In this document: positions 3,621 through 64,000 of the stretch, in pieces
Position numbering within the stretch: position 1 is the stretch's first letter
Layout: each line of letters opens with the position of its first letter
Virus record (IMG/VR): IMGVR_UViG_3300035661_000011
Coordinates: 1 to 64,000 of that record
Direction: 5' to 3' (one strand)
Length of the DNA: 64,000 nt
Source: a virus
Made by a program: the position numbers and the translations under genes
Notes under the pieces: generated by a model
The model's database searches: none
Seen by the model: only the letters and a program-made list of their open reading frames with translations
Told to the model about the DNA's origin: nothing

Positions 3621-3654
3621 ATACCACGCCAACACAGCTGTGTTGGCGTGGTAT
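3621..3654 (+). terminator. Inverted-repeat terminator after the endolysin
   Basis: Perfect 34-base palindrome with GC-rich arms; only weak T content downstream, so termination is inferred from position and form. Confidence 0.7.
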
Positions 3655-6431: not shown

Positions 6432-6510
6432 TGTAGTTTCCTTCTTAAACTATGAGTGTTCTGTATATAAGATTTACTACCGTCCCATTGATTTCAATTT
6501 GATACACCTA

Positions 6511-6538
6511 CATATCCACGCATTAATGCGTGGATATG
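6511..6538. terminator. Terminator palindrome in copy A
   Basis: Perfect 28-base inverted repeat with no T-run; its position between blocks and its twin at 56401-56428 support a terminator role. Confidence 0.6.
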
Positions 6539-6561
6539 TAAACTCAATAAATACTTATTTA

Positions 6562-6571
6562 TATATCATCT
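6562..6571 (+). promoter_or_regulatory. Early-type promoter element TATATCATCT
   Basis: C-variant of the element repeated across the window, 71 bases before the ATG at 6642. Confidence 0.55.
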
Positions 6572-6641
6572 ATGGGAGTTAACAATTTAGTTTCTCACGT
6601 TGCTATTACGGGTTAATAGTTTATTCTATAGGTACAATGTT

Positions 6642-7202
6642 ATGAAAAATTTAAATTCTGTTTTAGATTCAGAAACTTTAGAAATGGCAAAAGTCTTGCC
6701 ACTTTTAATAACCTCAACAAATTCTGAAACGTTAACCCGTAACTGGGTTAATGGTAAGCGTTTGTCTCGCAAAAACCCACTCACCATCTTTATGGTTGGT
6801 GGGCTGTTAAAGATGGTTCATGAAGATTTAGTTCATCTTCGACTTAACCAAACCATCGAGTTGTCGTTAGAATTCGACACTGCGGTTTCAGCAGTGTTTG
6901 CAGTTGTTGAATTTTCCAAATTTGATGTCAGTAAGATAGACATCGATAAATTGTGGCACGATATATCGTGCCATGTAAATGTTTATTTGGTGGAGCGTAA
7001 TGCTCCACGTTTCATAGGTAGAGTGTGGGACTCTATCGGAAGTGTACTTTATAAAGTAGATTCGTCTGTAGCTCACTCAGTTGAATCTCAGCTCGGTAAA
7101 CACATCGTACACCATGTTATGACGGTACTGGAACGTATCATCCCAAAAACAAAATGGTCATGGTTAGACCGCGTGGGAGGTAGTCGTGGTAGTCGTGGAT
7201 GA
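6642..7202 (+). CDS. Unknown protein, 186 aa, coding sequence packed with hairpins
   Basis: ATG at 6642 is chosen over an upstream in-frame TTG because it follows the promoter cassette and an AGG-like site. The protein has no recognised domain and ends in a Gly/Ser/Arg tail (GGSRGSRG). The striking feature is the DNA: the gene is a near-continuous chain of perfect inverted repeats, e.g. 7-bp TTAACCC/GGGTTAA (6732-6751), 9-bp arms 6783-6791/6809-6817, GAAGAT/ATCTTC (6822-6840), CACTGC/GCAGTG (6878-6896), GATGTC/GACATC (6924-6944), a 20-base palindrome (6954-6973), GTGGAGC/GCTCCAC (6990-7008), TAGAGT/ACTCTA (7019-7035) and a 14-base palindrome (7045-7058). The gene overlaps the next by 17 bases. 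It shares its upstream cassette and hairpin style with 56534-57202, without clear protein similarity. Confidence 0.8.
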   Translation: MKNLNSVLDSETLEMAKVLPLLITSTNSETLTRNWVNGKRLSRKNPLTIFMVGGLLKMVHEDLVHLRLNQTIELSLEFDTAVSAVFAVVEFSKFDVSKIDIDKLWHDISCHVNVYLVERNAPRFIGRVWDSIGSVLYKVDSSVAHSVESQLGKHIVHHVMTVLERIIPKTKWSWLDRVGGSRGSRG

Positions 7203-7518
7203 TGGGGTAAGTAAGTATGTCACGTTCATCCCAGTAAGAGCTGGGAGTTGGACGTGTATCGTTTATGCAACACACAACTACGTCACTAATAAATTTACCA
7301 TTAATGATGTGGCTCCAGGTAAGAATGGAGAAGTTCCAGATTGGAAATCTCTAGATGGTGTGGAGTTTAACTGTAAACGTGATATACGTGATACAGTTAA
7401 ACAGCTCTTGCTTAAAGCGAGAGATAACATTGAAGAGGGGTACATGGCGATTACAGTTATTGTGCCCCGTAAGAAGATATTGGAGGTACATAAGTACATC
7501 CATAATTTAGAAGCATAG
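7186..7518 (+). CDS. Unknown protein, 110 aa
   Basis: Starts at GTG 7186 behind a GGGAGG site inside the end of the previous gene, so the two are translationally coupled. Small mixed alpha/beta-looking protein (YMAITVIVPRKKILEVHKYI near the end), no motif. It also carries coding hairpins, notably 10-bp arms 7366-7375/7392-7401 and CCCAG/CTGGG at 7230-7245, more sparsely than its partner. The block ends at the terminator 7524-7557. Confidence 0.75.
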   Translation: MVVVDDGVSKYVTFIPVRAGSWTCIVYATHNYVTNKFTINDVAPGKNGEVPDWKSLDGVEFNCKRDIRDTVKQLLLKARDNIEEGYMAITVIVPRKKILEVHKYIHNLEA

Positions 7519-7523
7519 CAGTT

Positions 7524-7557
7524 TGTGTGGACTTGAGATTAATCTCAAGTCCACACA
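7524..7557. terminator. Bidirectional terminator between convergent genes
   Basis: Perfect 17-bp arms followed by a T-run (7559 onward); stops the plus block and faces the minus gene ending at 7572. Confidence 0.85.
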
Positions 7558-13480: not shown

Positions 13481-13828
13481 GTGATGATGACTGGGAAGAT
13501 TCTATTGAAGAAAGAGATTGGTATTTTCGATTACAACAAATTATTATGGGGTTACAAACATGGGAATAGTTAACAGAGAATACTTTTTAAACCCGTCTGT
13601 AAAAACACTGTAATTTAGTTTATCGTGTGTTTACAGAGTCGTTAGCTGTTATCTTAGAGTGTCAATTACGTCATTAGGGTTTTTCCTAATGACGTAACGA
13701 AATATAACTTTTTAAAACATTGGTGTAGGAGTTAGAAAGTGGTTGGCGTACGCATATTCGCCAGTCGAGATACCTTAATTCGTTTGTGATAGACACCCAC
13801 TGGTATTAATACCAGTGGGTGTCTATCA
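13481..13828. other. Gene-free interval with large hairpins
   Basis: No convincing gene. It holds the frame-shifted continuation of the polymerase tail (to about 13571), distant 7-bp arms CTGTAAA/TTTACAG around 13600-13636, a perfect 13-bp hairpin at 13666-13697 with a T-containing loop, TGGCG/CGCCA near 13743-13762, and the big terminator at 13786. Confidence 0.5.
13666..13697. terminator. 13-bp perfect hairpin, probable terminator
   Basis: Arms 13666-13678 and 13685-13697, loop of G and T only; lies 185 bases after the polymerase stop. Confidence 0.5.
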
Positions 13829-13829
13829 C
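13786..13829. terminator. Bidirectional terminator between convergent genes
   Basis: Perfect 44-base palindrome (22-bp arms) at the 3' end of the minus-strand gene; among the longest in the window. Confidence 0.8.
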
Positions 13830-19238: not shown

Positions 19239-21197
19239 ATGAGCAATGAATTAATTGATGAACCGACTGTAGCTTCTGCTGCTAGAAGACCACAACCAGG
19301 TGCAAAACAAACCCAACAAAGACAACCGCCGCCAATATCACCTGGCACACGGAGAAACACAAACAGTTTATTTGGTGCTGCAATGAGCGGTAACCGCCAG
19401 TCAGCAGATATGGGTGAGATCCACGAATCGTTTAGTGCGCTTTGCACGGGCTATTTTGCTACCACTGGTGTTTCTGTGGAGGCTATTGCATTTGATGACA
19501 TATCGCTTCTAATTCCTGCGGAAATGTTAGTGGTGCGGGAAGGTAATCGTTTATACGTTGGCGTATTCCTGATTTCACATCTTCTGCGTGCACAGATTCC
19601 AGACTTTGTAGAGCGCGGTGGCTATGGTCGTGAAATTGTACTTCCCCAAACCGAAGAGTCTTTGTGGACATCTCCAATTATGCAAGAGCGTGCATATGCA
19701 CTGTTAGCAAGAACATACTTTGCTGACAAAAACTACTCGATGCAAGAGCTTGAAAAGCTGATTATTATTTCCAGCGTACAAAGACTATCTCCAACTAAAC
19801 GTTACATCACCACAGCTGATTGCGAAGTACCATTCGACCATGCAATGGCTTCAATTTTAGCATTTATCAAATTGTCGCGTGGCGAAGGTACATCTCTGTT
19901 TACAGCAGATGATTTGCGTGATGCAGGTTACACAATGGCTGTGCGTCACAAAATTAATCCAACTGGAATGTCTACGAACACCTATGGGGAACCTATGGCG
20001 TGTGACATCGAGTTGACATTAGTGGCGCGGTCACAAAAGCGACCAGATTCTTTGCATCAAACAGAGATTGACCAAATTCTTTGTCAAGTTAGTTTGACTA
20101 TTGATTTCTTACCTATGAAACCAGGTAGTGAAGTTATCCGTCTATCTAATCGTCAAGAAGCACATCCGTTAGTAGTTCCAGTGTTTATTATTCGCCAAGC
20201 CACAACGGTATCATTAGGAACAACTAATAACGATTCTTTCTTAACGCAGATTTTGGCGTTAAGTATGGTCAAAGCGTATTCGGAAGATCCACAACGTTGG
20301 GGTCAGTTGTTTGAACCTGGAACTATGTCGAACTGCATTAACAACATTGGGTTACTTGGTAAACTAGGTGACCCAAATCCAGTGTCAAACGAAATCCCAG
20401 GCGTAGTTACAATCTTGCCACGCGGTTCATATTCAACTGAACCCAAAACCAAAACAGTTATTCAGATGATCGAAGAATACTGTTCGCAAACGCCAATTAT
20501 TGCGATGGACGTCGCTCGTGCAGGCCCTATGCAATATATTCAGGAATTGTTTACGTATACAGATGCTGAAAATTTGGTTAACACCGAACTATCCTCATTT
20601 GTTATGGAATACAATGAAGCGGCTGGTACTCATGAAATCGATAAAGATGCATTCTTCAGATTCTGGCAAACTGAATTTGGCGGTCCATCCAAGTCACCAA
20701 TCTTCGACCCTAACCATGATTTACAAGGTCATGTGGATCAATGGGAAGGTACGTTTGTTGGTAGCGACCATTTGTTACATGACATCCATGAAGTTGACTT
20801 GTTGGCGTTTCTATACGACGATAACGTAAGTGAAGAATCTCTAGCTAAGTACGCCAATTGTAGTATCCCATCTGACAATTCTTTGCTGGATTTGGACAAC
20901 CGATTACAGTTGATTACAGGTATCTTACCACACCGTACAATCACCGGTAAGTCAATGCGGTATTTCTACAACCCTCACTTTCTATATGTGGTTGACCGCT
21001 ACTTGACAAACTACGGCGTTGGATTTGAATTGGATGAAAGTATGTTGCATGTTCGTAGCTCATTCGGTTTGAACCGCGATTACTTGTTGGAGGGTAATGA
21101 GCAATCGTCTGCATTCCGTGCAGCTGGAATTCGTCGCGGTGATACACGCGGCAGTGACCAGTTCCAACCAATGAACAGTCGTAAAAGATTCTACTAA
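19239..21197 (+). CDS. chmA: Probable chimallin (ChmA), phage nuclear-shell protein
   Basis: ChmA tiles into a single-layer lattice that encloses the replicating genome and excludes host nucleases. The case here is by context and form: 652 aa (ChmA of 201phi2-1 and Goslar are about 630 aa), a disordered Pro/Gln/Arg-rich N-terminal tail (about 1-50: QPGAKQTQQRQPPPISPGTRR), a large mixed domain, and a flexible Arg/Ser-rich C-terminus (GSDQFQPMNSRKRFY). This matches the flexible tails that tie ChmA subunits together. It has an early-type promoter, a structured leader, base composition richer in GC than neighbours (high expression), its own terminator, an RNA polymerase gene directly downstream, and PhuZ in the same genome. 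I cannot align it to known ChmA without a search. Alternative: an abundant virion protein. Confidence 0.65.
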   Translation: MSNELIDEPTVASAARRPQPGAKQTQQRQPPPISPGTRRNTNSLFGAAMSGNRQSADMGEIHESFSALCTGYFATTGVSVEAIAFDDISLLIPAEMLVVREGNRLYVGVFLISHLLRAQIPDFVERGGYGREIVLPQTEESLWTSPIMQERAYALLARTYFADKNYSMQELEKLIIISSVQRLSPTKRYITTADCEVPFDHAMASILAFIKLSRGEGTSLFTADDLRDAGYTMAVRHKINPTGMSTNTYGEPMACDIELTLVARSQKRPDSLHQTEIDQILCQVSLTIDFLPMKPGSEVIRLSNRQEAHPLVVPVFIIRQATTVSLGTTNNDSFLTQILALSMVKAYSEDPQRWGQLFEPGTMSNCINNIGLLGKLGDPNPVSNEIPGVVTILPRGSYSTEPKTKTVIQMIEEYCSQTPIIAMDVARAGPMQYIQELFTYTDAENLVNTELSSFVMEYNEAAGTHEIDKDAFFRFWQTEFGGPSKSPIFDPNHDLQGHVDQWEGTFVGSDHLLHDIHEVDLLAFLYDDNVSEESLAKYANCSIPSDNSLLDLDNRLQLITGILPHRTITGKSMRYFYNPHFLYVVDRYLTNYGVGFELDESMLHVRSSFGLNRDYLLEGNEQSSAFRAAGIRRGDTRGSDQFQPMNSRKRFY

Positions 21198-32712: not shown

Positions 32713-32718
32713 CACTCA

Positions 32719-32750
32719 GTCGGGTAGGTGACAATTGTCACCTACCCGAC
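32719..32750. terminator. Bidirectional terminator between convergent genes
   Basis: Perfect 32-base palindrome between the plus block and the minus gene ending at 32757. Confidence 0.75.
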
Positions 32751-32756
32751 TTACAG

Positions 32757-48107: not shown

Positions 48108-48755
48108 ATGGCACAACAACCACAACCCAATAAACAACCCCCTGTCACTGATACAACTAAACCACCAGTACCGCCACTTACACCACCAGAAACTAAAGTG
48201 GTCGTCGATGAAACCGAAATCGAAGGTGTGGAAGACAAAACCACCACTGTCACTGGTGAGGAATCGATAAAAGACATGACACCAACCAAAGAACAATCTC
48301 AAGAAGAAGAACTGACTCTTTGTCCAGATACACTTATTAATAAACAGTTAGTTCGTGGGTTAGAGGGTATTCGTGAACTATTTGAATCTGGTCAAATGTC
48401 AAATGTAGGTCCATTTCATGTGGATACATACAACGCACTGTCTCGTGCACTAACCTTACTTTCCTGGGAAGATACAAAACTTACGCTGGATAACATTTTC
48501 AAATACATGGAGCGTTACAGCGAAGGACATTGTCATCAAAATATCATTTTGCAAAATGTAACATTTTGTACATTGTCAAAAAGTTCACAACTTGAGTACA
48601 CTAAGTTGATGAGTTTATTTGTATCTCTACAAAACCCAAGTAGCCGTGGCGTGACTGCTAAGCAAATTAACTGGAGCACTTTTCCAGCTGGATTTACACC
48701 GGCTCACGGTGAAGCATATACTGCGAAATTTAAACGGTATTTTAACATCGTTTAA
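48108..48755 (+). CDS. Unknown protein, 215 aa, disordered N-terminus
   Basis: Residues 1-65 are Pro/Thr/Glu/Lys-rich and disordered (PPVTDTTKPPVPPLTPPET); the rest is folded and helical with a basic C-terminus (YTAKFKRYFNIV). Composition is less AT-rich than neighbours. The stop codon lies in the loop side of an 11-bp hairpin (48726-48759) that may protect or terminate the mRNA. Function unknown. Confidence 0.75.
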   Translation: MAQQPQPNKQPPVTDTTKPPVPPLTPPETKVVVDETEIEGVEDKTTTVTGEESIKDMTPTKEQSQEEELTLCPDTLINKQLVRGLEGIRELFESGQMSNVGPFHVDTYNALSRALTLLSWEDTKLTLDNIFKYMERYSEGHCHQNIILQNVTFCTLSKSSQLEYTKLMSLFVSLQNPSSRGVTAKQINWSTFPAGFTPAHGEAYTAKFKRYFNIV

Positions 48756-51256: not shown

Positions 51257-51294
51257 ATGTGGACGCAGAGTGAATATTCACTCTGCGTCCACAT
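51257..51294 (+). terminator. Intrinsic terminator
   Basis: 16-bp perfect arms and a long T run (51300-51312). Confidence 0.9.
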
Positions 51295-52485: not shown

Positions 52486-53503
52486 TTAATTTACATTGCA
52501 CATTTCTTTTTCAAATTCGGCATAAAATACATCTAGTGATGGCATACCATAGCAGGACATAGCTAATGAAACAGGGTTTGCTACGACTGAGGTTAAGTTG
52601 ATACCAATTTCTCTTTGCTGATATTCTTCCAGTCCTTCAATTTTACATAAAACAAAAACATTTGTTCCTTTTGATACATTGCCAATTTCACCACCCGAAG
52701 GATATGCCCCTGTTAAATCTATGTCAGATGCAAATAACATAATGTTAGTTGCCATTTCTGGAAACTCTTTAATTACACATAGTCCAAGTCCTTCTTCTAA
52801 CTCAGCAGCTAAAGTAATGCCTTTTGTCCCATTAGCTCGTTACACTAATGCGGTGTGCTAAGACACCCGCCTACACTCTCGTGTAGGAGCAGATCATATC
52901 ACCATCCTCTGAGATTAACCCAGGTGGGATGTGTACTATTTCTTCCTCATTTTATAACTAGAGGCTCTACACCCAGTTACGGGTTGATCGTTGAACGTTC
53001 TCCATATCACATAGTGACTTAGGAGCTTCGCGGCTGATTGACTCTACCTAATCATTTTCAGACATTCATAGCCTGTTTTCACGGCTATTGTAGTTGATTA
53101 GTCTAACGAGTTATTCCAGCAATTAAGTACATTTTTCATCTACCGATTCCTCGATAGGGGGACCTAAATTATCTGTTAGATAATATTTAATAAAATGAAC
53201 ACCACTTAAACATTCCACTGGTTGACTAAACGCGTAATACACATTGTCAAATTCTACATTGTTCGGATTGCTGTCATGGTACATGGACTTTATATAAACC
53301 CATTGAGATATAGGTACCGATATGTTATATTTACACACCGCAACCAAACTACCATACTCAAACTTACCAACCTCAGGTAAATCTGCGTAACATTTACCGC
53401 CCACACTTATTACAGGTAAAGAAGCATCTTTGTAATACACTTTACCGTTAAAGAATTTTAACCCATACACATTTTCATTTTTATTAAACATAACGAACAC
53501 CAT
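52486..53503 (-). CDS. Family B DNA polymerase, palm motif A piece, split by a group I intron
   Basis: Exon 1 (53503 to about 53125) encodes about 126 residues; exon 2 (about 52835 to 52486) continues NGTKGITLAAELEEGLGLC and then SDIDLTGAYPSG. The last matches palm motif A of family B polymerases (DxxSLYPS), whose first aspartate binds catalytic metal. NINL-type segment GINLTSVVANPVSL and FYAEFEKE follow as in phage family B enzymes. Motif A is absent from the motif B/C protein at 11204, so this chain should complete the active site. Without splicing the frame stops at TAA 53123-53125. ATG 53503 has no clear ribosome binding site. It follows the exonuclease piece by 51 bases. Confidence 0.8.
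52836..53124 (-). ncRNA. Group I intron in the DNA polymerase motif A gene
   Basis: On the minus strand the conserved core is present: Q-like AATCAGCCGCGAAGCTCC, R-like GTTCAACGATCA and S-like GATATGATCTG. Paired elements: P7 GATCA (52985-52989) with TGATC (52892-52896); P6 CTCC/GGAG (53000-53025) capped by TCAC/GTGA; P8 CATCC/GGATG (52903-52931); P9 CCTACAC/GTGTAGG with GAGA loop (52870-52887); a further 5-bp hairpin and CATTAG/CTAATG near the 3' end. About 289 bases, no internal ORF. Both ends are approximate: the 5' site lies near the TAA at 53123, the 3' site just before the frame of exon 2 reopens (52835-52838). Confidence 0.88.
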
Positions 53504-55108: not shown

Positions 55109-56392
55109 ATGAGTAAATTAAAAATAGAAGGGTATGGCATTGAGGGAATTGACCATCAGTATAATTCTGAATTGGGTGCAAGGTTAGAGGGGTGTTTTAC
55201 AGAAATTAGAAAATCTCGTAACGTTACATCAAGAGTTTTAAAAGACTCGGGTTTATCTGCAATAGTGTCTAGTTGTACAGATGGTATGAAAGTGACGTTT
55301 GATGTGGATATGGAACAAGCTGATAACCTGTATGTGTTTATGCCGGATTTAAATAGAAACCATGTGTTACATGACCAGATTAGAACTATGGTTTATGAAG
55401 AACATGACGCTAAACCATTCTTAGAAAAGAAAGGTTTTTTATCAGGTGGAGTAAACTTAAAAAATGGCACTGTATCTGGTGACTACACTAAAGTTGAAGC
55501 TAACGTGTACATTGGTATAGGTCTACTATCACAGGGGTCGTGGTGCTCAATTAAGGAGCTCGTAGCAGGAGTTTTACATGAGATAGGACACTTCTTTAGT
55601 TACCTAGAAATGTTAGGGAGATTTCTTAGAACAAATTACTTATTGGATGAGTTTGTTTCAAAGATGTTAAAAGTGGAATCAAAAGAACAACGAACTGTTT
55701 TATTATCAGAGTTAGAAGAAAACACTAAAACTAAAATTGCTAAGAAAGCAGATATTGCTACAATGGCAAGAACTGGTGAAGCGTATAGTGTTTTAGTTTT
55801 AACACAAGCTGCTAAAGCTAGTGAATATGAGTTGGGTGTAAATGTATACGATGTGCGTGCATGGGAACAGTTAGCTGACAATTATGCAGCAAGACATGGT
55901 TACGCTAAACACCTTGCTATCTTCTTAGATAAGGTGTATAGAACGTATGGAAATAGACAATATGACTCTCCAACATACAGGGTGTTTTGTGAGATAACAA
56001 AAGTGTTTTGTTGGATACTACCACTGTATGCACTTCCAACTATGGGGTTTGCATTAGGATATGGGTTACTGACTGGGTTGATTCTAGGTAACCCATGTTC
56101 AGAAGAATACGACCCTCCAGATAAACGATTTATGAAACTTAAGCAGCAGACTGTCGATGCTTTAAAAGATAAAAAACTATCTAGGTCACAAAGGGTAAAG
56201 TTTCTTGAAGACCACGAAACAATAGATAGGTTAATTAACGACCTCAATAGTAAATCTGAAACAGTGTGGTATATGTGGTACACTATGTTTCCTTGGGGTA
56301 AAAAAGATGTTAAGGATGCTAAACATTTTCAAGAAGTAGAAGGGTTACTTAACAACGATTTGTTTGCTACAGTCGCATTGATTTCAATTTGA
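55109..56392 (+). CDS. Membrane-associated zinc metallopeptidase (HExxH)
   Basis: 427 aa. VLHEIGHFFSYLE gives H157-E158-x2-H161, and EQLADNYAARHG about 95 residues later supplies the third ligand (E253) in the gluzincin order used by M48/M56-type enzymes. A hydrophobic helix at about 298-325 (ILPLYALPTMGFALGYGLLTGLIL) suggests membrane contact. Target unknown: host or phage-protein processing are both possible; phiKZ head protease is a different (serine, gp21-like) family. ATG behind GTGGAGCGGTT. The last codons of this gene form the start of the duplicated cassette also found at 6486. Confidence 0.82.
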   Translation: MSKLKIEGYGIEGIDHQYNSELGARLEGCFTEIRKSRNVTSRVLKDSGLSAIVSSCTDGMKVTFDVDMEQADNLYVFMPDLNRNHVLHDQIRTMVYEEHDAKPFLEKKGFLSGGVNLKNGTVSGDYTKVEANVYIGIGLLSQGSWCSIKELVAGVLHEIGHFFSYLEMLGRFLRTNYLLDEFVSKMLKVESKEQRTVLLSELEENTKTKIAKKADIATMARTGEAYSVLVLTQAAKASEYELGVNVYDVRAWEQLADNYAARHGYAKHLAIFLDKVYRTYGNRQYDSPTYRVFCEITKVFCWILPLYALPTMGFALGYGLLTGLILGNPCSEEYDPPDKRFMKLKQQTVDALKDKKLSRSQRVKFLEDHETIDRLINDLNSKSETVWYMWYTMFPWGKKDVKDAKHFQEVEGLLNNDLFATVALISI

Positions 56393-56400
56393 TACACCTA

Positions 56401-56428
56401 CATATCCACGCATTAATGCGTGGATATG
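56401..56428. terminator. Terminator palindrome in copy B
   Basis: Perfect 28-base inverted repeat 8 bases after the peptidase stop. Confidence 0.6.
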
Positions 56429-56451
56429 TAAATTCAATAAATACTTATTTA

Positions 56452-56461
56452 TATATCATCT
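56452..56461 (+). promoter_or_regulatory. Early-type promoter element TATATCATCT
   Basis: C-variant, 73 bases before the hairpin-packed gene at 56534. Confidence 0.55.
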
Positions 56462-56533
56462 AGTAGAGTAAACAATAATGTTTCTCTCTTTGCTATTAAG
56501 ATTTAATAGTTAATTATAGTTAGGGTATTTACA

Positions 56534-57202
56534 ATGAAAAATAAAATCGCTTTACTGAAAACTTTAGTACAAAACAACGACGCAGATGCGTTGAATGTAT
56601 TTAACACAGCAACAGCAGAAGTGTTGTTGTCTGAAGATGAAGGCGTTCAAGTCCAGCTAATGGCTGGGTGGTGGATGAGACTTCAAAAAGAAGTCCCAGG
56701 CATGAGCTCTTCCATAGATTTGTTCCAAGTTATTAAACTCGGATACAGTTTGAAAACTAAACTGGACAAGTTGTCCAATGAACAGAAAGAGGTTATCGCG
56801 AAAGCGATAACTGAAGCACTGGAGGATGAGACATTCCGTAAGGAATCAGCAGTTGTATTCCTCGAATACATTGTTGGTCGTGTGCAGTTGAGCACACTGA
56901 TAAAATCAGCAGTGGACTCCGTACTGTTGAAGTTAGCAGATGTAGATGAACTAAAACCATTCATGGGTGACATTACCCATGTGTTAAAACTGGCATTACC
57001 GCTTTTGGTGACAGCGGTAAAATCTACAGATATGCTGCTTGGGTGGTCCGGTAGATGGGTGGATGATACAGATTACTCTGTCCAGCGGTGTATTCGAGGA
57101 ATACCGGATGTAATAGTGTCACACCCTTACGGACCAATACTTAACCCTGAGTCACCAGAGGTTAAGGCTCAAATAGAAAGATTTAAATCTATATTTGGGT
57201 AA
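56534..57202 (+). CDS. Unknown helical protein, 222 aa, coding sequence packed with hairpins
   Basis: The protein is helical (long Leu/Lys/Glu stretches, e.g. LDKLSNEQKEVIAKAITEAL), with a hydrophobic central helix (HVLKLALPLLVTAV); no domain recognised. The coding strand is a chain of perfect stem-loops: CCAGC/GCTGG (56653-56667), GACTTC/GAAGTC (56679-56695), CAGTTT/AAACTG (56746-56764), TGGACAA/TTGTCCA (56763-56777), 8-bp GTTATCGC/GCGATAAC with a GAAA loop (56792-56811), ATTCC/GGAAT (56833-56846), GTATTC/GAATAC twice (56855-56869, 57090-57104), GTGTGC/GCACAC (56880-56897), 7-bp CATGGGT/ACCCATG (56962-56981), TTACCGC/GCGGTAA (56996-57020), CTTAACC/GGTTAAG (57140-57166) and a 12-base palindrome (57179-57190). 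Codon use is less AT-rich than flanking genes. Own promoter and terminator. Confidence 0.85.
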   Translation: MKNKIALLKTLVQNNDADALNVFNTATAEVLLSEDEGVQVQLMAGWWMRLQKEVPGMSSSIDLFQVIKLGYSLKTKLDKLSNEQKEVIAKAITEALEDETFRKESAVVFLEYIVGRVQLSTLIKSAVDSVLLKLADVDELKPFMGDITHVLKLALPLLVTAVKSTDMLLGWSGRWVDDTDYSVQRCIRGIPDVIVSHPYGPILNPESPEVKAQIERFKSIFG

Positions 57203-57208
57203 ACGTAA

Positions 57209-57240
57209 CAGCCATTGCACACAGTAGTGTGCAATGGCTG
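57209..57240 (+). terminator. Intrinsic terminator
   Basis: 14-bp perfect arms with AGTA loop, T10 run from 57251. Confidence 0.9.
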
Positions 57241-57304
57241 TGCTTGTACGTTTTTTTTTTTGCATTTTATACTATGTCAATAAAATCAATGGGAGTAGAA
57301 CCAA

Positions 57305-59551
57305 ATGTATACGTTAAAATGTTTCCAAATACCAGACTCCGATGAGAACATACATCGAGTAAAAGAATACTTATCGCGGGTAAATGTAAAGTGTAGAATT
57401 GATATACTCACGTACATCGTAGGTGTTAGTATTAAACCTACCGCTGCGTTAATAGGTGCATCGTCCGAGGAAATATCAAAAGACTTCGATATAGTGCATA
57501 CACCAGAGATTACTAATCTATTCGATGACCTAACTAATTCAGGAATAATATTCCCACGCCTTGTAGTTTTAAACAATATTAAAACTATATACATTCGTAG
57601 ATTACAACTAACTCGTAACGATTTATATCGTACATTCTCAGACAATGAGGAACACTGGTTATCATTCATTCAGTTACCTAATGAAATGGACTCTGATAAA
57701 AAACAGTGTGTAATGACAACTATAGGTGGAGCTGTATTACGGATATACGATTATATCTTAGAACAAAAAGGTGAAATGTTTAAATATAAATATAACACCT
57801 TACAAGATGGAACGTTTTGTAATTTGGTGGATGAAGCAATTAATAATTTAAAATATGATATTTCTTTCGAATTATCAGTGGCAGACTGGAGACGACTTAT
57901 ACACAGTGTTAAATCGTATCTGGTTAATCTTCAGTTTGGTATAGAATCACCAAATGAAACGCAGATTACCGCCACATTTGTAGCGTATTATTTGAAAAAC
58001 GCTAATGGGGTTTGGTCAGCTGAAAGTATTAAAAATTACATTGAAGCTTCAGAAACTTTGGAATTAGTTTCTATTGTACAAGACCCTTGTGGGTCAGAGT
58101 CTATTGGCTTAGAGGGAATCGATGTAAAAGGTGCAGAAGAATTGGTTTTTTACTCCGATGGTGCTGAGGACATTATCGATAGAGAAAACCTCAAGAATTT
58201 AGCTAGAGCTGTAGTAAGCTCGTTTAAATCATACTCAGATGACCATAGGCAGATGGAGGAGATTTTTGACAATGAAAAATTCGTAGGGTATGAAAGTCTT
58301 GAAGAATACGCTGAACATTTTCAAAAGGCTATTGAGTTAATGCAAAGACACTCTGGTGTTATCTTTGGTGCAGTAATTGCTTTAGTCATAGGTGTAGTGG
58401 GGTATATGCTTAAAAAGAAATTTGATGCTAGAGGCACTAAAGCTGAAGAAACAGTAAAAGAATACAACGAGATAGTGAAAAAGATAGAGTCTTTGTCTGG
58501 CGTAAGTGTAGAAAACAACTATATAAAGTATGGTGTTGTTGAAAAAAGTAAAGATATAGCAAACGACTTTAACAAAGCGTATTCTACTACACTCCACAAT
58601 ACATTACTACATGGTAAGGATGGATACGACTTACCTGGTTTAACAGCGACGATGACTGCGCATTTAGATGCGATAAAAGAATGTAGATCAGATTTTATAG
58701 AAATGTATAGTATTCTACAGAACGCAGTGTTAGAGGTGGGTAAGCCATCGGGAGAAACGTGTGCGACAATGATATCTAACGTTCAAACAATATTCCAATC
58801 AAAAGATTTTGACAAAATACAATATTCCAGAAAACCACTATACGAGTACGTTAAAGGTAAAGGTGGACACTATCCGTGGAGTTCTCCTAGTAATCAGATG
58901 TTAGAACTCATTAACCTAGACGTAGAGCGACACACCTCATTGGATGAGTCTAAAGTCGAAAGACATGATTTCTGGTCAGCTAGATACAATGTTAAGAACG
59001 ATAAAGGTGCCGCTAGGGTCATAGATAGTCTCAAACACCCATATAGCTACGCTGGCCCTGTACAGCCAGTAAACCACGAGGGTTTAAAATTAGGATGTAG
59101 TCTACTGGCACAATTTACACCAAGTGAAATGGTAAAACTAAACACCCTAAATAGCTCTGCATTAAAACTACAAAAGCAATTCGAAAATGAACATAGTGGT
59201 AATTCCACAAAAGCAATGTTGCAACACGGTGGTGGCGACCAAGTAATAAGTTGGCCACCAGAATATGCGAAAAACAACTCGCCGTGGGATTCATTAAAAC
59301 CTAGTAACAAGCATACTTCCACTAGAAAGAATGCAAGTGAAGTTATAACTGCTGTAATTTCGGGTGGAGTTCTACGTTCTAGAATTCATGCAGCAGCACA
59401 AATAGCTAGTTCTGTAAATGACTTACATAAAGTTACAGTTGCAATAGCCGCCATGACAACAACTGCGCAAGAATATTATAACTGTAGAAAAAATGAAGCG
59501 GCTATGATATATACACGCATAAAAGAAGAAGAAGAAGCTAAAAAGAAATAA
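57305..59551 (+). CDS. Large membrane/coiled-coil protein, 748 aa, possible virion inner protein
   Basis: ATG behind TGGGAGTAGAACCAA. One membrane segment at about residues 351-370 (SGVIFGAVIALVIGVVGYMLKKKF) preceded and followed by coiled-coil-like helices; C-terminal half polar, ending in a charged EEEEAKKK tail. Proteins of this form occur as ejected inner-head or tail proteins of jumbo phages, but no homology is recognised. The next gene follows by 18 bases, suggesting an operon. Confidence 0.8.
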   Translation: MYTLKCFQIPDSDENIHRVKEYLSRVNVKCRIDILTYIVGVSIKPTAALIGASSEEISKDFDIVHTPEITNLFDDLTNSGIIFPRLVVLNNIKTIYIRRLQLTRNDLYRTFSDNEEHWLSFIQLPNEMDSDKKQCVMTTIGGAVLRIYDYILEQKGEMFKYKYNTLQDGTFCNLVDEAINNLKYDISFELSVADWRRLIHSVKSYLVNLQFGIESPNETQITATFVAYYLKNANGVWSAESIKNYIEASETLELVSIVQDPCGSESIGLEGIDVKGAEELVFYSDGAEDIIDRENLKNLARAVVSSFKSYSDDHRQMEEIFDNEKFVGYESLEEYAEHFQKAIELMQRHSGVIFGAVIALVIGVVGYMLKKKFDARGTKAEETVKEYNEIVKKIESLSGVSVENNYIKYGVVEKSKDIANDFNKAYSTTLHNTLLHGKDGYDLPGLTATMTAHLDAIKECRSDFIEMYSILQNAVLEVGKPSGETCATMISNVQTIFQSKDFDKIQYSRKPLYEYVKGKGGHYPWSSPSNQMLELINLDVERHTSLDESKVERHDFWSARYNVKNDKGAARVIDSLKHPYSYAGPVQPVNHEGLKLGCSLLAQFTPSEMVKLNTLNSSALKLQKQFENEHSGNSTKAMLQHGGGDQVISWPPEYAKNNSPWDSLKPSNKHTSTRKNASEVITAVISGGVLRSRIHAAAQIASSVNDLHKVTVAIAAMTTTAQEYYNCRKNEAAMIYTRIKEEEEAKKK

Positions 59552-59951: not shown

Positions 59952-59989
59952 ACGCCACCATAGTGAGGTTAACCTCACTATGGTGGCGT
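59952..59989. terminator. Bidirectional terminator between convergent genes
   Basis: Perfect 38-base palindrome between the plus block and the minus-strand virion genes; T-run on the plus side from 59995. Confidence 0.85.
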
Positions 59990-59999
59990 ACTACTTTTT

Positions 60000-62903
60000 T
60001 TATTCTTCAGAATCGTAAAGTATTGAAACTGAATCAACTACATCTAACGAATTATCACTTTGCACAAGTATTTTACTACCTATCGAAAAGGTTTGTGTTT
60101 TGTCAAGTAGAGTTACCATAGTCGCCCCATTGGGTAGATATTTATCAACCGAAAACGATATAGCTTGTTTTGGTAAAATCTTTTTAATTAACTCCATTAA
60201 CTGAGAAACACTTAGGGTTGTTTTTTGTAACTCAGCACTTATTACTTGACGACATAAATTTGTTGTCTGTGATTGTAAAGATGTGTTTTCGAGACCATCT
60301 TGGTTCATATATACAGTTATCTGTACATCAAGTAAACCTATGACATTTGTTACAATCCCATTACCTAGGTTAACATTTACACTAAATGATTCTCCAGATG
60401 GTTTATACCATAGTTTAGTTTGTTCATTTAGCAATTTTGTTAGTGGTTGAATATCGTTGTCTAAATACGATAGTAGAGTGTCGGGTATGGTATCTGCATA
60501 AGATTTTGTAACGATGCTAGTCGCGTATTTGTATTTAGCATCTACCATAGTCACACCAATGCTGTATGCCACACCGTTAGTAAAGTTTGGTGTCGGTATA
60601 GTTAAACCATTTGAGAGTATGTATTCGCCAGCTTTATGGAGCAGCTTGGGATTACCTAAGTCGTCTAACACTGCGTCCCCAGATTTATGTAATATCTGTA
60701 AATTCACATTGCCACTGCTATCTATCGTAAAACTAGGGCCGTCTGGACCATTTACATACACAATTTCATCGTATACAGCGGGTACGTCTTCGATATAAGT
60801 TAAGTATTCTCCTGTGGTGAGACTTTCATACACTGGACAATATAGGTTAGGTAGATGTTTACCAAAGTAAATGTTTATAGTCTCATAGGTAGCACCAATT
60901 ACACCGGTAGATTTATTCAGTCTAGGTGTACTAAATAGATTATCAAAAGTGGTGTGTAAACTACTATTGTCACCTGGCACTAAATAAAAAACATTAAATA
61001 CAGTTGACATATCAAAGAATAATGGTTCATTCGAACCAGATGCGTTTTTAAAGTTTAAAAACTCCAATTGGTTTATTGTGTTAATATCAAAGTTTGTAAC
61101 TAGGTCAAATTCAAAAATAGCTTGACTAGAGCGCACAGTCGATGTGGAATCTAAATACACAGTGGTTCCGCTACCGACATCAAAGTATGATAACTGACAT
61201 AAGACAGACTGTAAATTAGATGGTATCGCTGCCGTCAGGGTTAGTCGATATTTGTTCCCAGATAAAGATATTACACTTTCCATTGTAGCAATGTTGTAAA
61301 CACGTTGTGTGTTTTGCAACAGTAGGTTTCTACCAATCACCTTAGGGCTATCTAAGTAATATGCTCTTCCTACAAACACGTGTTCACTATAATCTAAAAC
61401 GTATGTGAATGGGCTGTACATGTACATACCACTATTAAGTTTATCACATAATGCCGCTCCAGTTAAAGCGTTTATTTCACTAATTTCAATGGGAGTAAGT
61501 AAACTAGCGTCCCCATTGGAAATTGAAAATAATGCACCAGGTAGAATGCTAGTTCTTCCAGACGAATGTACGATAACTTCACCACTGGTGTCGTTAAGTG
61601 TGTAATCTTTAATAAAAACTTTAATCACGTTATTAGTAGCTAATGGAGATGCCGCAAACCCAGACATTGTGTTTGTAGGTAAATTCTTACTAGCTAAGTA
61701 CATCCTACTAGACACATTGTTAAGTAAAACTTCAGTTGAGTAACCTCTACTTGATAATTCTGCGGTTATATCAGTTGGTCGTATAGGTGCTTTCGTAGAG
61801 TTTATTCTGTATATAACCCTTTGATAAACTTCATCAAAGGACAGTGGGTTAACACCGCCTGTAACTGAACCAGTGCCGTTTATAACTATATCATTAATTT
61901 TGTTAAGTGCAGATACAGCACTACTACCTTGGGTGTTTAACGTATCATAGTTATCAAATGTGGCACTAAAGTTGTTATATGTGACTTGGGTTAAGTCTGT
62001 TGAAATATCACCTAGTGTAGTGTAAATATCGACACGTAGTGCTGTATCAACGGTGTTTAATGTTTGATATATATCTGGCAATGTAACTGTAAGAATACCA
62101 TCTGTGAGTGAAAGTAACATAGTGGGTTTTTCTATATCGTATACTTTATCAGAGAATGTAGTGAGTAACTCAACCCATGAACTAGTTCCGTTACTCATAA
62201 ACACTCTAGCATAACAGAAGTAGTTAACAAAACTAATGTCTTGATAAAACGATGCAGTTTGTCCTAGTGTAAATTTTTTACTAAAACTAGACACCTGTAT
62301 AGCTGGCGTTTCAAACTGTAAATACTTAGTATTACCATGATTTATAAAGTTGTAGGCTACCACATTCGCTATATATGGCACTAGTGGGTTAGCAACACTG
62401 GTGTCATAGTACACTTGAATTAACTCACCAGGTAATATATTAATTATTACAGAGTATCCAATTTGCAAAGTTATGTCATTTACATAAATCTTAGTATCTC
62501 TTGGGATAATAACGGTTTTAACTGCTGACCCCGGTACAAGCGGTATAGCGTTATTTAATAACTGATAAAACGGAATCATCCAATTTAATGTAGATTTCCC
62601 ACCAGTGCCAAAAATACCAACGTAGTCGGTATCCGACATATGGTGATATAAATCATCCATAACCTGTGCTAAGTAAGGGTATTGTTTTCTTGAAAGTGCT
62701 TCGCTTTTAGCTATAGATACCGCTGAGGCACACATAGCTGTTTCTAATAGATAAACAAATGGGTTACTTGGGTCAACGATATCGACACCCTTTAACGCTA
62801 ATGCTAACCCATTGGTAGCCACTTGCATCATACTACTAGGGTTCATATAAAACTTGTCTAAATTGGCTACCAGATATTTTGTCAGTGTGGTTTCTGTTAT
62901 CAT
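60000..62903 (-). CDS. Large virion structural protein, 967 aa, baseplate wedge-like
   Basis: ATG 62903 behind TAGGTAAGTAAA. A helical N-terminal 110 residues (NPFVYLLETAMCASAVSIAKSEALSRKQYPYLAQVMDDLYHH) leads into a very long beta-rich, Thr/Ser/Asn/Tyr-rich body, the build of phage baseplate or tail proteins. The N-terminal layout recalls T4 gp6-type wedge proteins; this is by eye only. It sits behind the 62926 gene with a 22-base gap, so the two are co-expressed, presumably late. Confidence 0.75.
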   Translation of the reverse strand: MITETTLTKYLVANLDKFYMNPSSMMQVATNGLALALKGVDIVDPSNPFVYLLETAMCASAVSIAKSEALSRKQYPYLAQVMDDLYHHMSDTDYVGIFGTGGKSTLNWMIPFYQLLNNAIPLVPGSAVKTVIIPRDTKIYVNDITLQIGYSVIINILPGELIQVYYDTSVANPLVPYIANVVAYNFINHGNTKYLQFETPAIQVSSFSKKFTLGQTASFYQDISFVNYFCYARVFMSNGTSSWVELLTTFSDKVYDIEKPTMLLSLTDGILTVTLPDIYQTLNTVDTALRVDIYTTLGDISTDLTQVTYNNFSATFDNYDTLNTQGSSAVSALNKINDIVINGTGSVTGGVNPLSFDEVYQRVIYRINSTKAPIRPTDITAELSSRGYSTEVLLNNVSSRMYLASKNLPTNTMSGFAASPLATNNVIKVFIKDYTLNDTSGEVIVHSSGRTSILPGALFSISNGDASLLTPIEISEINALTGAALCDKLNSGMYMYSPFTYVLDYSEHVFVGRAYYLDSPKVIGRNLLLQNTQRVYNIATMESVISLSGNKYRLTLTAAIPSNLQSVLCQLSYFDVGSGTTVYLDSTSTVRSSQAIFEFDLVTNFDINTINQLEFLNFKNASGSNEPLFFDMSTVFNVFYLVPGDNSSLHTTFDNLFSTPRLNKSTGVIGATYETINIYFGKHLPNLYCPVYESLTTGEYLTYIEDVPAVYDEIVYVNGPDGPSFTIDSSGNVNLQILHKSGDAVLDDLGNPKLLHKAGEYILSNGLTIPTPNFTNGVAYSIGVTMVDAKYKYATSIVTKSYADTIPDTLLSYLDNDIQPLTKLLNEQTKLWYKPSGESFSVNVNLGNGIVTNVIGLLDVQITVYMNQDGLENTSLQSQTTNLCRQVISAELQKTTLSVSQLMELIKKILPKQAISFSVDKYLPNGATMVTLLDKTQTFSIGSKILVQSDNSLDVVDSVSILYDSEE

Positions 62904-62925
62904 TTTACTTACCTATAGTAGTTGG

Positions 62926-64000
62926 TTATTTTCCAGTTTTATCTGGTGGTGGCATTATATTCGGTGTTAGTATAGATGAGCCTACAGTTGACGATTGTAC
63001 CATACTGGTTAGTGCAGGTACACCTACTTTGTTTCCAGATGGTTGTGTCTTAGGTTGTGTACCGCCTGTATCCTGAGGGGATTTCTTTTTAAGTAATTCA
63101 TCAACACCAGTTAATATACGTTTAATTTCTTTTATTTTAGTATCATAAACTTGTTTTTCAACATACCACTCTAACTCATATGTTTCGATGTTAATATAAG
63201 GGTATGCTTCGTAATCAAATATCAGTTTAAGGTCATACGGTATTTCAGATTTACTTTGGTTTAGCTTAACCATATTGGATTTACTGTCTTTCATGTCAAC
63301 ATTAAATGCTTCCACAGTCTCGTTGAATTCATACAACAGAATGTTCCTGTTTTTTTCTGCACCAACACAATGTAGATTTATCTGCACTTTATTGTTTTCA
63401 CTAGTGTATACATCTGACCGGTTATATCCAAACTTAGCACCGTCTGGATTAGTAGTTGGTATAAAGTATCCTGGTGCAGCAATGTTTTGCACAAATGTCC
63501 TTGTCTTATCCATAATTAGTCTGTAGTAACGTGAAGTATAATCCATTTCATTACACATTAGAAATATAGGGAACGGACACACTGTGCCTTCAACCACTCT
63601 ATTGCCCCATTCTATCCATGCACCAAACATAGCACATATAAAATCTCCATCCATGTTATCAAACGTGGCAGTTATATCAAATACACCATTAAACTCTGAG
63701 TACCCATCGTAAAACGTAACTTGTTCACCACGTTTACCCTCAGGGCTATTATAAGTGTCCATCTGTGTATCTGGCATAGCACTTAACGATTCTAAAAAGT
63801 TACTAATCGGTAAGAATGCTTGTTTATCGTTTATAAGGTTTGACCTCTGAAGAATCTTTGAGTCTTTTAAAGAAGAAGCTTTTAATGCATTAATGTCCGG
63901 CTCACCAAATAAATTAGGTGACAACATACAACGTATAGCGTTTGACATAGAGTTCTCTTTATCGTCCGCTAAGAAGTTTAATTCGCTTATAGCCTTAACA
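62926..64000 (-). CDS. Virion structural protein, at least 340 aa (5' end probably outside the window)
   Basis: ATG 63948 (MSNAIRCMLSPNLFGEPD) is one possible start with a weak AAAGAGA site, but the frame stays open to the window edge and the extra residues (AISELNFLADDKENS) read as coding, so the gene may begin beyond 64000. Beta-rich middle with many aromatic residues, charged helix, then a Pro/Gly/Ser/Thr tail (about 290-340). No catalytic motif. Structural role inferred from composition and from pairing with the 967 aa protein. Confidence 0.7.
   Translation of the reverse strand, partial: VKAISELNFLADDKENSMSNAIRCMLSPNLFGEPDINALKASSLKDSKILQRSNLINDKQAFLPISNFLESLSAMPDTQMDTYNSPEGKRGEQVTFYDGYSEFNGVFDITATFDNMDGDFICAMFGAWIEWGNRVVEGTVCPFPIFLMCNEMDYTSRYYRLIMDKTRTFVQNIAAPGYFIPTTNPDGAKFGYNRSDVYTSENNKVQINLHCVGAEKNRNILLYEFNETVEAFNVDMKDSKSNMVKLNQSKSEIPYDLKLIFDYEAYPYINIETYELEWYVEKQVYDTKIKEIKRILTGVDELLKKKSPQDTGGTQPKTQPSGNKVGVPALTSMVQSSTVGSSILTPNIMPPPDKTGK

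Follow-up and report, generated by a model that had tools for sequence, protein, structure and literature searches.

The gene at positions 56534-57202 of the viral record IMGVR_UViG_3300035661_000011 carries a large excess of perfect hairpins within a coding region whose protein is under constraint. It is linked to other structured genes by a shared promoter-leader, it retains its stems in a related phage, and it bears the scars of inverted copying. Our leading explanation, which we hold tentatively, is that such leader-sharing genes form accessory units whose mRNAs are selected for folding and whose stems arise and are restored through template switching. The window, a stretch of 64,000 nt, comprises positions 1 to 64,000 of this 154.5-kb record.

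Perfect hairpins in the coding region exceed codon-preserving expectation

Counting perfect stems of at least 6 bp with loops of 1-13 nt, we found 11 in ORF 56534-57202, including 6 of at least 7 bp, with 142 bases residing in stems. Synonymous shuffles (n = 2,000) gave a mean of 2.26 stems (SD 1.44), and a stricter null that also fixes codon-junction dinucleotides (n = 480) gave 3.11 (SD 1.56); a count of 11 was reached in 0 of 2,000 and 0 of 480, respectively. None of the 2,480 shuffles matched the gene in stems of at least 6 bp, in stems of at least 7 bp or in stem bases. These data confirm the first-pass annotation, which had described a gene made almost wholly of back-to-back hairpins and had proposed the codon-preserving control. 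All of the stems it listed are present (Table 1), although its chance expectation of about one stem of 6 bp or more was too low, the shuffles giving about 2.3 to 3.1. The excess is much larger for perfect stems (11 versus 2.0 expected) than for those with one non-wobble mismatch (1 versus 2.5 expected).

Among the 144 ORFs of the 154.5-kb record, this ORF ranks first in stem excess and first in local folding energy (z -8.0 sense, -7.4 antisense), and the whole 800-nt transcript is more stable than its dinucleotide shuffles (z -10). The folding energy is below the synonymous-shuffle expectation, as in selected coding RNA structure. A 23-bp long-range helix predicted in the transcript, G-U pairs included and with 56855-56878 and 57081-57104 as its arms, encloses a multibranch region; three C-to-T differences within this helix are read as G-U pairs.

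ORFs 6600-7202 and 48108-48755 likewise stand out in stem excess. The latter, which has no leader, shows the second highest perfect-stem excess (9 versus 2.2) and an ordinary folding-energy rank (56 of 144). The neighbouring genes had been described as lacking the trait, which holds for the upstream gene but not for downstream ORF 57305-59551, where a weaker excess is found (18 versus ~8 expected). The 1.3-fold stem excess across the record is itself ordinary: genes of Vibrio phage pVa-21 (100 kb) and phiKZ (50 kb) display a similarly mild, 1.2 to 1.4-fold excess. In pVa-21, z rises to about 5 in a handful of short genes with 4 to 6 stems each, and none matches ORF 56534-57202 in both count and density.

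Table 1 Features of the hairpin-dense gene, its flanking elements and the second leader unit
Feature	Position	Strand	Details
32-nt perfect zero-loop palindrome	56399-56430		TACATATCCACGCATTAATGCGTGGATATGTA; upstream of promoter; identical at 6509-6540 and G001:17531-17562
Promoter-leader	56434-56533	+	Core TTATTTATATATCATCTA at about 56448-56465; 5'UTR CTATTA...TAATAG stem-loop; RBS
Hairpin-dense protein-coding gene	56534-57202	+	222 aa, predicted all-helical; homolog L007:7426-8091
Perfect stems	56679-56695, 56746-56764, 56880-56897, 56962-56981, 57090-57104, 57140-57166		In ORF 56534-57202
7-bp hairpin	56763-56777	+	Kept in relative with compensatory change, G-C to A-T
8-bp hairpin, GAAA loop	56792-56811	+	Stem conserved; loop inverted in relative (GAAA versus TTTT)
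7-bp stem	56854-56870		In ORF 56534-57202
Long-range helix, 5' arm (predicted)	56855-56878	+	Source segment of the inverted copy; forms a hairpin itself
8-bp stem	56996-57020		In ORF 56534-57202
24-nt inverted copy	57081-57104	+	3' arm of predicted long-range helix
12-nt palindrome	57179-57190		In ORF 56534-57202
Terminator-like hairpin	57208-57241	+	15 bp, loop AGTA; outer AACGTA/TACGTT arm, then T run
Second palindrome and promoter-leader copy	6499-6641	+	Recurrence of leader
Second hairpin-dense leader gene	6642-7202	+	186 aa; ORF listed from 6600
Additional structured gene, second leader unit	7186-7518	+	110 aa

A constrained protein in a phiKZ-like nucleus-forming phage

A homolog in contig IMGVR_UViG_3300037010_000424 shares ~79% of the first 172 residues; in their C-terminal thirds the two proteins show no relationship. 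Comparison of the pair (pN 0.12, pS 0.57) gives a dN/dS of about 0.13, indicating that the ORF encodes a real protein. Protein family, PDB and NCBIfam searches with this protein returned no credible relative and no family at curated cut-offs, tblastn against phages gave no match, and homologs outside the phage lineage were not found. Its AlphaFold model is all-helical and poor (pLDDT 45). A Fontimonas match from a genome contig scan was rejected as a chance decamer inside an MFS-like transporter, and BLASTP gives no support for paralogy with the 6642 protein.

The 154.5-kb record encodes a terminase, PhuZ tubulin, a nuclear shell protein, RNA polymerase beta-type subunits and a DNA polymerase, and is therefore that of a phiKZ-like nucleus-forming jumbo phage. 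The combination of nuclear shell protein, PhuZ and multisubunit RNA polymerases that characterises the Chimalliviridae is present (phrog_4795, E 5.8e-16; phrog_4733; phrog_3295; phrog_3015); phiKZ gp54 gave no match against the whole genome. Conserved genes of structural type, shared with the phiKZ-like group, lie immediately upstream (55109-56392) and at 60000-63948. A likely group I intron at 52870-53180 on the minus strand (Rfam RF00028, 45.4 bits, E 4.4e-9, just under the gathering score) sits between ORFs 53123-53503 and 52486-52755.

The hairpin trait belongs to genes that share a leader

Copies of the ~100-nt leader occur elsewhere in the 154.5-kb record at 6499-6625 (89%) and 94773-94882 (88%, lacking the palindrome), and a related sample has the leader in two of its contigs. 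An exact search of viral contigs for the leader core found none, and a degenerate pattern was found in three places only, in two contigs of one sample. A match of the leader region to Enterobacteria phage Aplg8, consisting of 39 AT-rich bases, was not taken as kinship. In the related contig L015 (400-460) the 32-nt palindrome is missing before leader 2; in the 154.5-kb record it precedes both leaders 1 and 2. Its presence at 6509-6540 and 56399-56430 and its absence in L015 suggest that leader DNA was copied between loci inside one phage lineage.

By folding energy, the five ORFs that follow the three leaders take places 1 (56534), 10 (6600), 4 (7186), 15 (94877) and 2 (95285) among 144 (Mann-Whitney p 1.3e-6). 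Homologs of the leader genes in the relative G001 rank 1 and 2 of 67, and the L015 homologs of 6642 and 7186 exceed shuffles in structure while two other L015 genes do not. Because the 95285 signal is partly weaker under the stricter null and its perfect-stem count just mildly raised, ORF 56534-57202, 6642 and 7186 are the clearest cases. Since the other leader genes and the counterparts in the relative also show an excess, though a weaker one, stem density appears to be a trait that is maintained across a class of phage messages and not an accident. The first-pass interpretation, which stands only in part, had overlooked this link to a leader-sharing set of genes.

Possession of the promoter core is not enough to predict the trait, as gene 50436 (NUDIX), which has a similar core, is not structured and neither is its G001 homolog. 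By analogy with AT-rich early promoters, the leader units may be early genes. Two other likely early genes, the nuclear shell gene 19239-21197 and the NUDIX gene, are not hairpin-dense, which counts against the leading explanation. Gene 96409-96981 (minus strand; L003:12409-12981), of unknown family and without the leader, holds structure rank 3 in the 154.5-kb record, its homolog G001 57190-57774 is also rank 3, and in both phages sense exceeds antisense. For 95285-95899 (L003:11285-11899), the version in a related contig contains an HExxH-like YHEEGHIRGKH, and there is a weak PHROG metalloprotease match (E 0.028).

Perfect palindromes without a loop and with arms of at least 11 bp (22-44 nt) are a further feature of the lineage, about 29 in the 154.5-kb record and 9 in G001. 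Examples in the window lie at 798-833, 3621-3654, 13786-13829, 32718-32751, 51257-51294 and 59952-59989. The approximately 29 palindromes are nearly all intergenic and mostly different in sequence; the stretches of phiKZ and pVa-21 that were tested contain none. Homologous palindromes differ by paired changes between phages; in 7524-7557 compared with L015 (about 1405-1438) a near-centre base pair covaries that is too central for RNA pairing. These intergenic palindromes call for an explanation at the level of DNA or as bidirectional terminators.

Stems are conserved in a manner that points moderately to the sense RNA

The homolog of ORF 56534-57202 in the relative contains 9 stems versus 1.7 expected, with synonymous sites near saturation. 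Retention of stems in a related phage had been proposed as a check, and they are indeed retained. In a strict test, in which the codons of the relative were permuted among sites sharing one codon in the first phage, 8 stems were kept versus 4.2 expected (P 0.018). When G-U pairs were included, pair retention in the two directions gave P 0.085 and 0.005 for ORF 56534-57202 and P 0.013 and 0.18 for 6642, and with Watson-Crick pairs only, retention in the same test was less significant. Summed over these four tests, 185 sense-type pairs were kept versus 169.9 expected; with A-C counted instead of G-U, as in the antisense, the values were 171 and 166.7.

One-sided changes in the stems of ORF 56534-57202 comprise 10 G-T, 3 A-C and 6 other, and in the pool of five leader-type or structured genes there are 24 G-T and 16 A-C, a weak contrast. 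Double changes in the pooled genes kept the pair in 14 of 14 cases. Genome-wide, stems with one mismatch contain 241 G-T (192 expected) and 189 A-C (175 expected). The covariation is thin because there is only one homolog per gene in the comparison. Antisense folding of ORF 56534-57202 nearly equals sense folding, which follows from perfect Watson-Crick repeats and would also be produced by a DNA-level process. Overall, stem conservation points moderately to selection on the sense RNA, and the earlier idea of an mRNA folded end to end gains moderate support from this G-U-tolerant conservation.

Traces of template switching

Read as its reverse complement, segment 57081-57104 matches at 23 of 24 positions the sequence that the relative has in place of 56855-56878, and so represents an inverted copy of an older state of this segment of the gene. 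In the hairpin at 56792-56811, inversion of the loop in the relative converts a Lys AAA codon to Phe TTT. Clustered changes explained by a reverse complement number 24, versus 11 and 9 in reversed and complemented controls. An inverted loop, an inverted copy and arm homogenisation, the marks of template-switch hairpins, are present, in few events and two lineages only. These traces clearly indicate that template switching acts on ORF 56534-57202. The suggestion that the gene grew by copying inverted segments is only partly supported, by the 24-nt inverted copy, which lies in the C-terminal part, and the inverted loop. Gene 68596-70113 harbors a 10-nt coding microinversion between the two phages (TAAGTATCTA versus TAGATACTTA).

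Discussion

In the mechanism that we tentatively favor, ORF 56534-57202 would be an accessory transcription unit of this nucleus-forming jumbo phage, equipped with a promoter-leader and a terminator of its own. Copies of one leader would drive at least three such units, whose mRNAs are selected for dense folding of the coding region. Template switching during DNA replication would supply and repair the stems, and these would be retained as folded sense RNA is favored. The most likely benefit would be a longer life for AU-rich messages in the host cytoplasm, where they may face RNases of the host or RNA-targeting defence. Another option is that a phage RNA-binding protein handles the folds. Nucleus-forming phages export their transcripts to the cytoplasm, and Cas13 is able to cut these (PMC12908238), making protection from nucleases or RNA-targeting defence the most natural benefit. 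We infer both the transcript protection and the early timing, and protection against nucleases or RNA-targeting defence specifically is a conjecture. The boldest form of this idea, in which leader-linked accessory messages wear an RNA armour of perfect hairpins across the coding region, built and repaired by template switching, that keeps exported transcripts alive in the host cytoplasm against nucleases or RNA-targeting immunity, is unlikely to be right as a whole. In phages that enclose their DNA behind a wall, the mRNA nevertheless remains exposed. Should the armour exist, end-to-end folded messages under one leader would be a direct, testable instance of a dsDNA phage using its mRNA for defence or control.

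A serious possibility, if itself a doubtful one, is that mutation bias alone accounts for the hairpins: template-switch correction of quasi-palindromes, raised in strongly transcribed DNA, would perfect the inverted repeats of leader genes and leave hairpins without function. Template switching can create hairpins, perfect stems and compensatory changes (PMC8794818, PMC8604942), transcription raises quasi-palindrome correction and mutation in yeast (PMC3820800), and for the coding palindromes of Nematomorpha the perfection of the repeats was argued to favor conversion over function (PMC6649704). This reading carries substantial weight because template switching alone can make perfect stems and because the excess of perfect over imperfect stems is so large; the inverted copy and loop, the microinversion in 68596, the reverse-complement counts and the near-equal sense and antisense excess all agree with it. 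Yet counting G-U improves stem conservation and counting A-C does not, which is unexpected from a process in double-stranded DNA, and strong transcription of the leader genes is an assumption. If correct, it would mean that template switching linked to transcription has shaped the texture of a gene in nature, with a bearing on the origins of RNA stems.

The remaining alternatives appear weaker. A transcript with a job of its own beside coding, whether as a decoy, as a scaffold or as the target of a phage RNA-binding protein, would fit the predicted long-range helix around a multibranch region, the stability of the transcript and the strongly conserved leader with its own stem-loop; it is nonetheless improbable, as an Rfam search of the region gave no match, the three leaders precede different proteins, and the architecture is not conserved, the relative lacking the C-terminal third and the long-range helix. 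Still less probable is a DNA-level element (cruciforms, a replication or packaging site, dimer-binding sites). The zero-loop palindromes of the lineage, whose central bases cannot pair in RNA, lend it some credence, but they are intergenic and of another type, while the coding stems have loops and favor sense-strand G-U. Chance or composition could draw on the mild excess seen in all jumbo-phage genes tested and is hardly credible given that no shuffle reached the observed count, the homolog independently shows the excess and the trait clusters on leader genes.

Comparison with known systems

In RNA viruses, genome-scale ordered RNA structure folds coding RNA lengthwise beyond codon-shuffle expectation. 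The folding described here is alike, but those are RNA genomes and here a few genes of a dsDNA phage are concerned. Judged from sequence features, ORF 56534-57202 also resembles phage morons in having its own promoter (the repeated leader) and terminator hairpin and in lying between structural genes. In phage pVa-21 no such unit follows the homolog of gene 55109-56392, although the intervening genes are not alignable. Dense mRNA hairpins are, to our knowledge, not a known moron trait, and we found no description of jumbo-phage mRNAs of such hairpin density in the open-access literature.

The closest parallel in coding DNA is provided by the mitochondrial palindromes of Nematomorpha (PMC6649704), which are likewise perfect inverted repeats in constrained ORFs, show gain and loss, and for which upkeep by template switching was proposed; ORF 56534-57202 shares the perfect inverted repeats beyond codon-preserving controls. 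The nematomorph palindromes, however, reach up to 284 bp and lie in animal mtDNA, whereas the stems here are 6-9 bp and set end to end (5-8 bp in ORF 56534-57202), fall short of arms of tens to hundreds of bp, belong to leader-linked phage genes and show some sense G-U tolerance. Arm homogenisation, loop inversion and inverted copies are also shared with template-switch RNA hairpins (PMC8794818) and with yeast coding genes (PMC8604942). Those cases concern RNA genes and scattered coding sites in yeast, while here hairpins dominate the texture of a class of viral genes.
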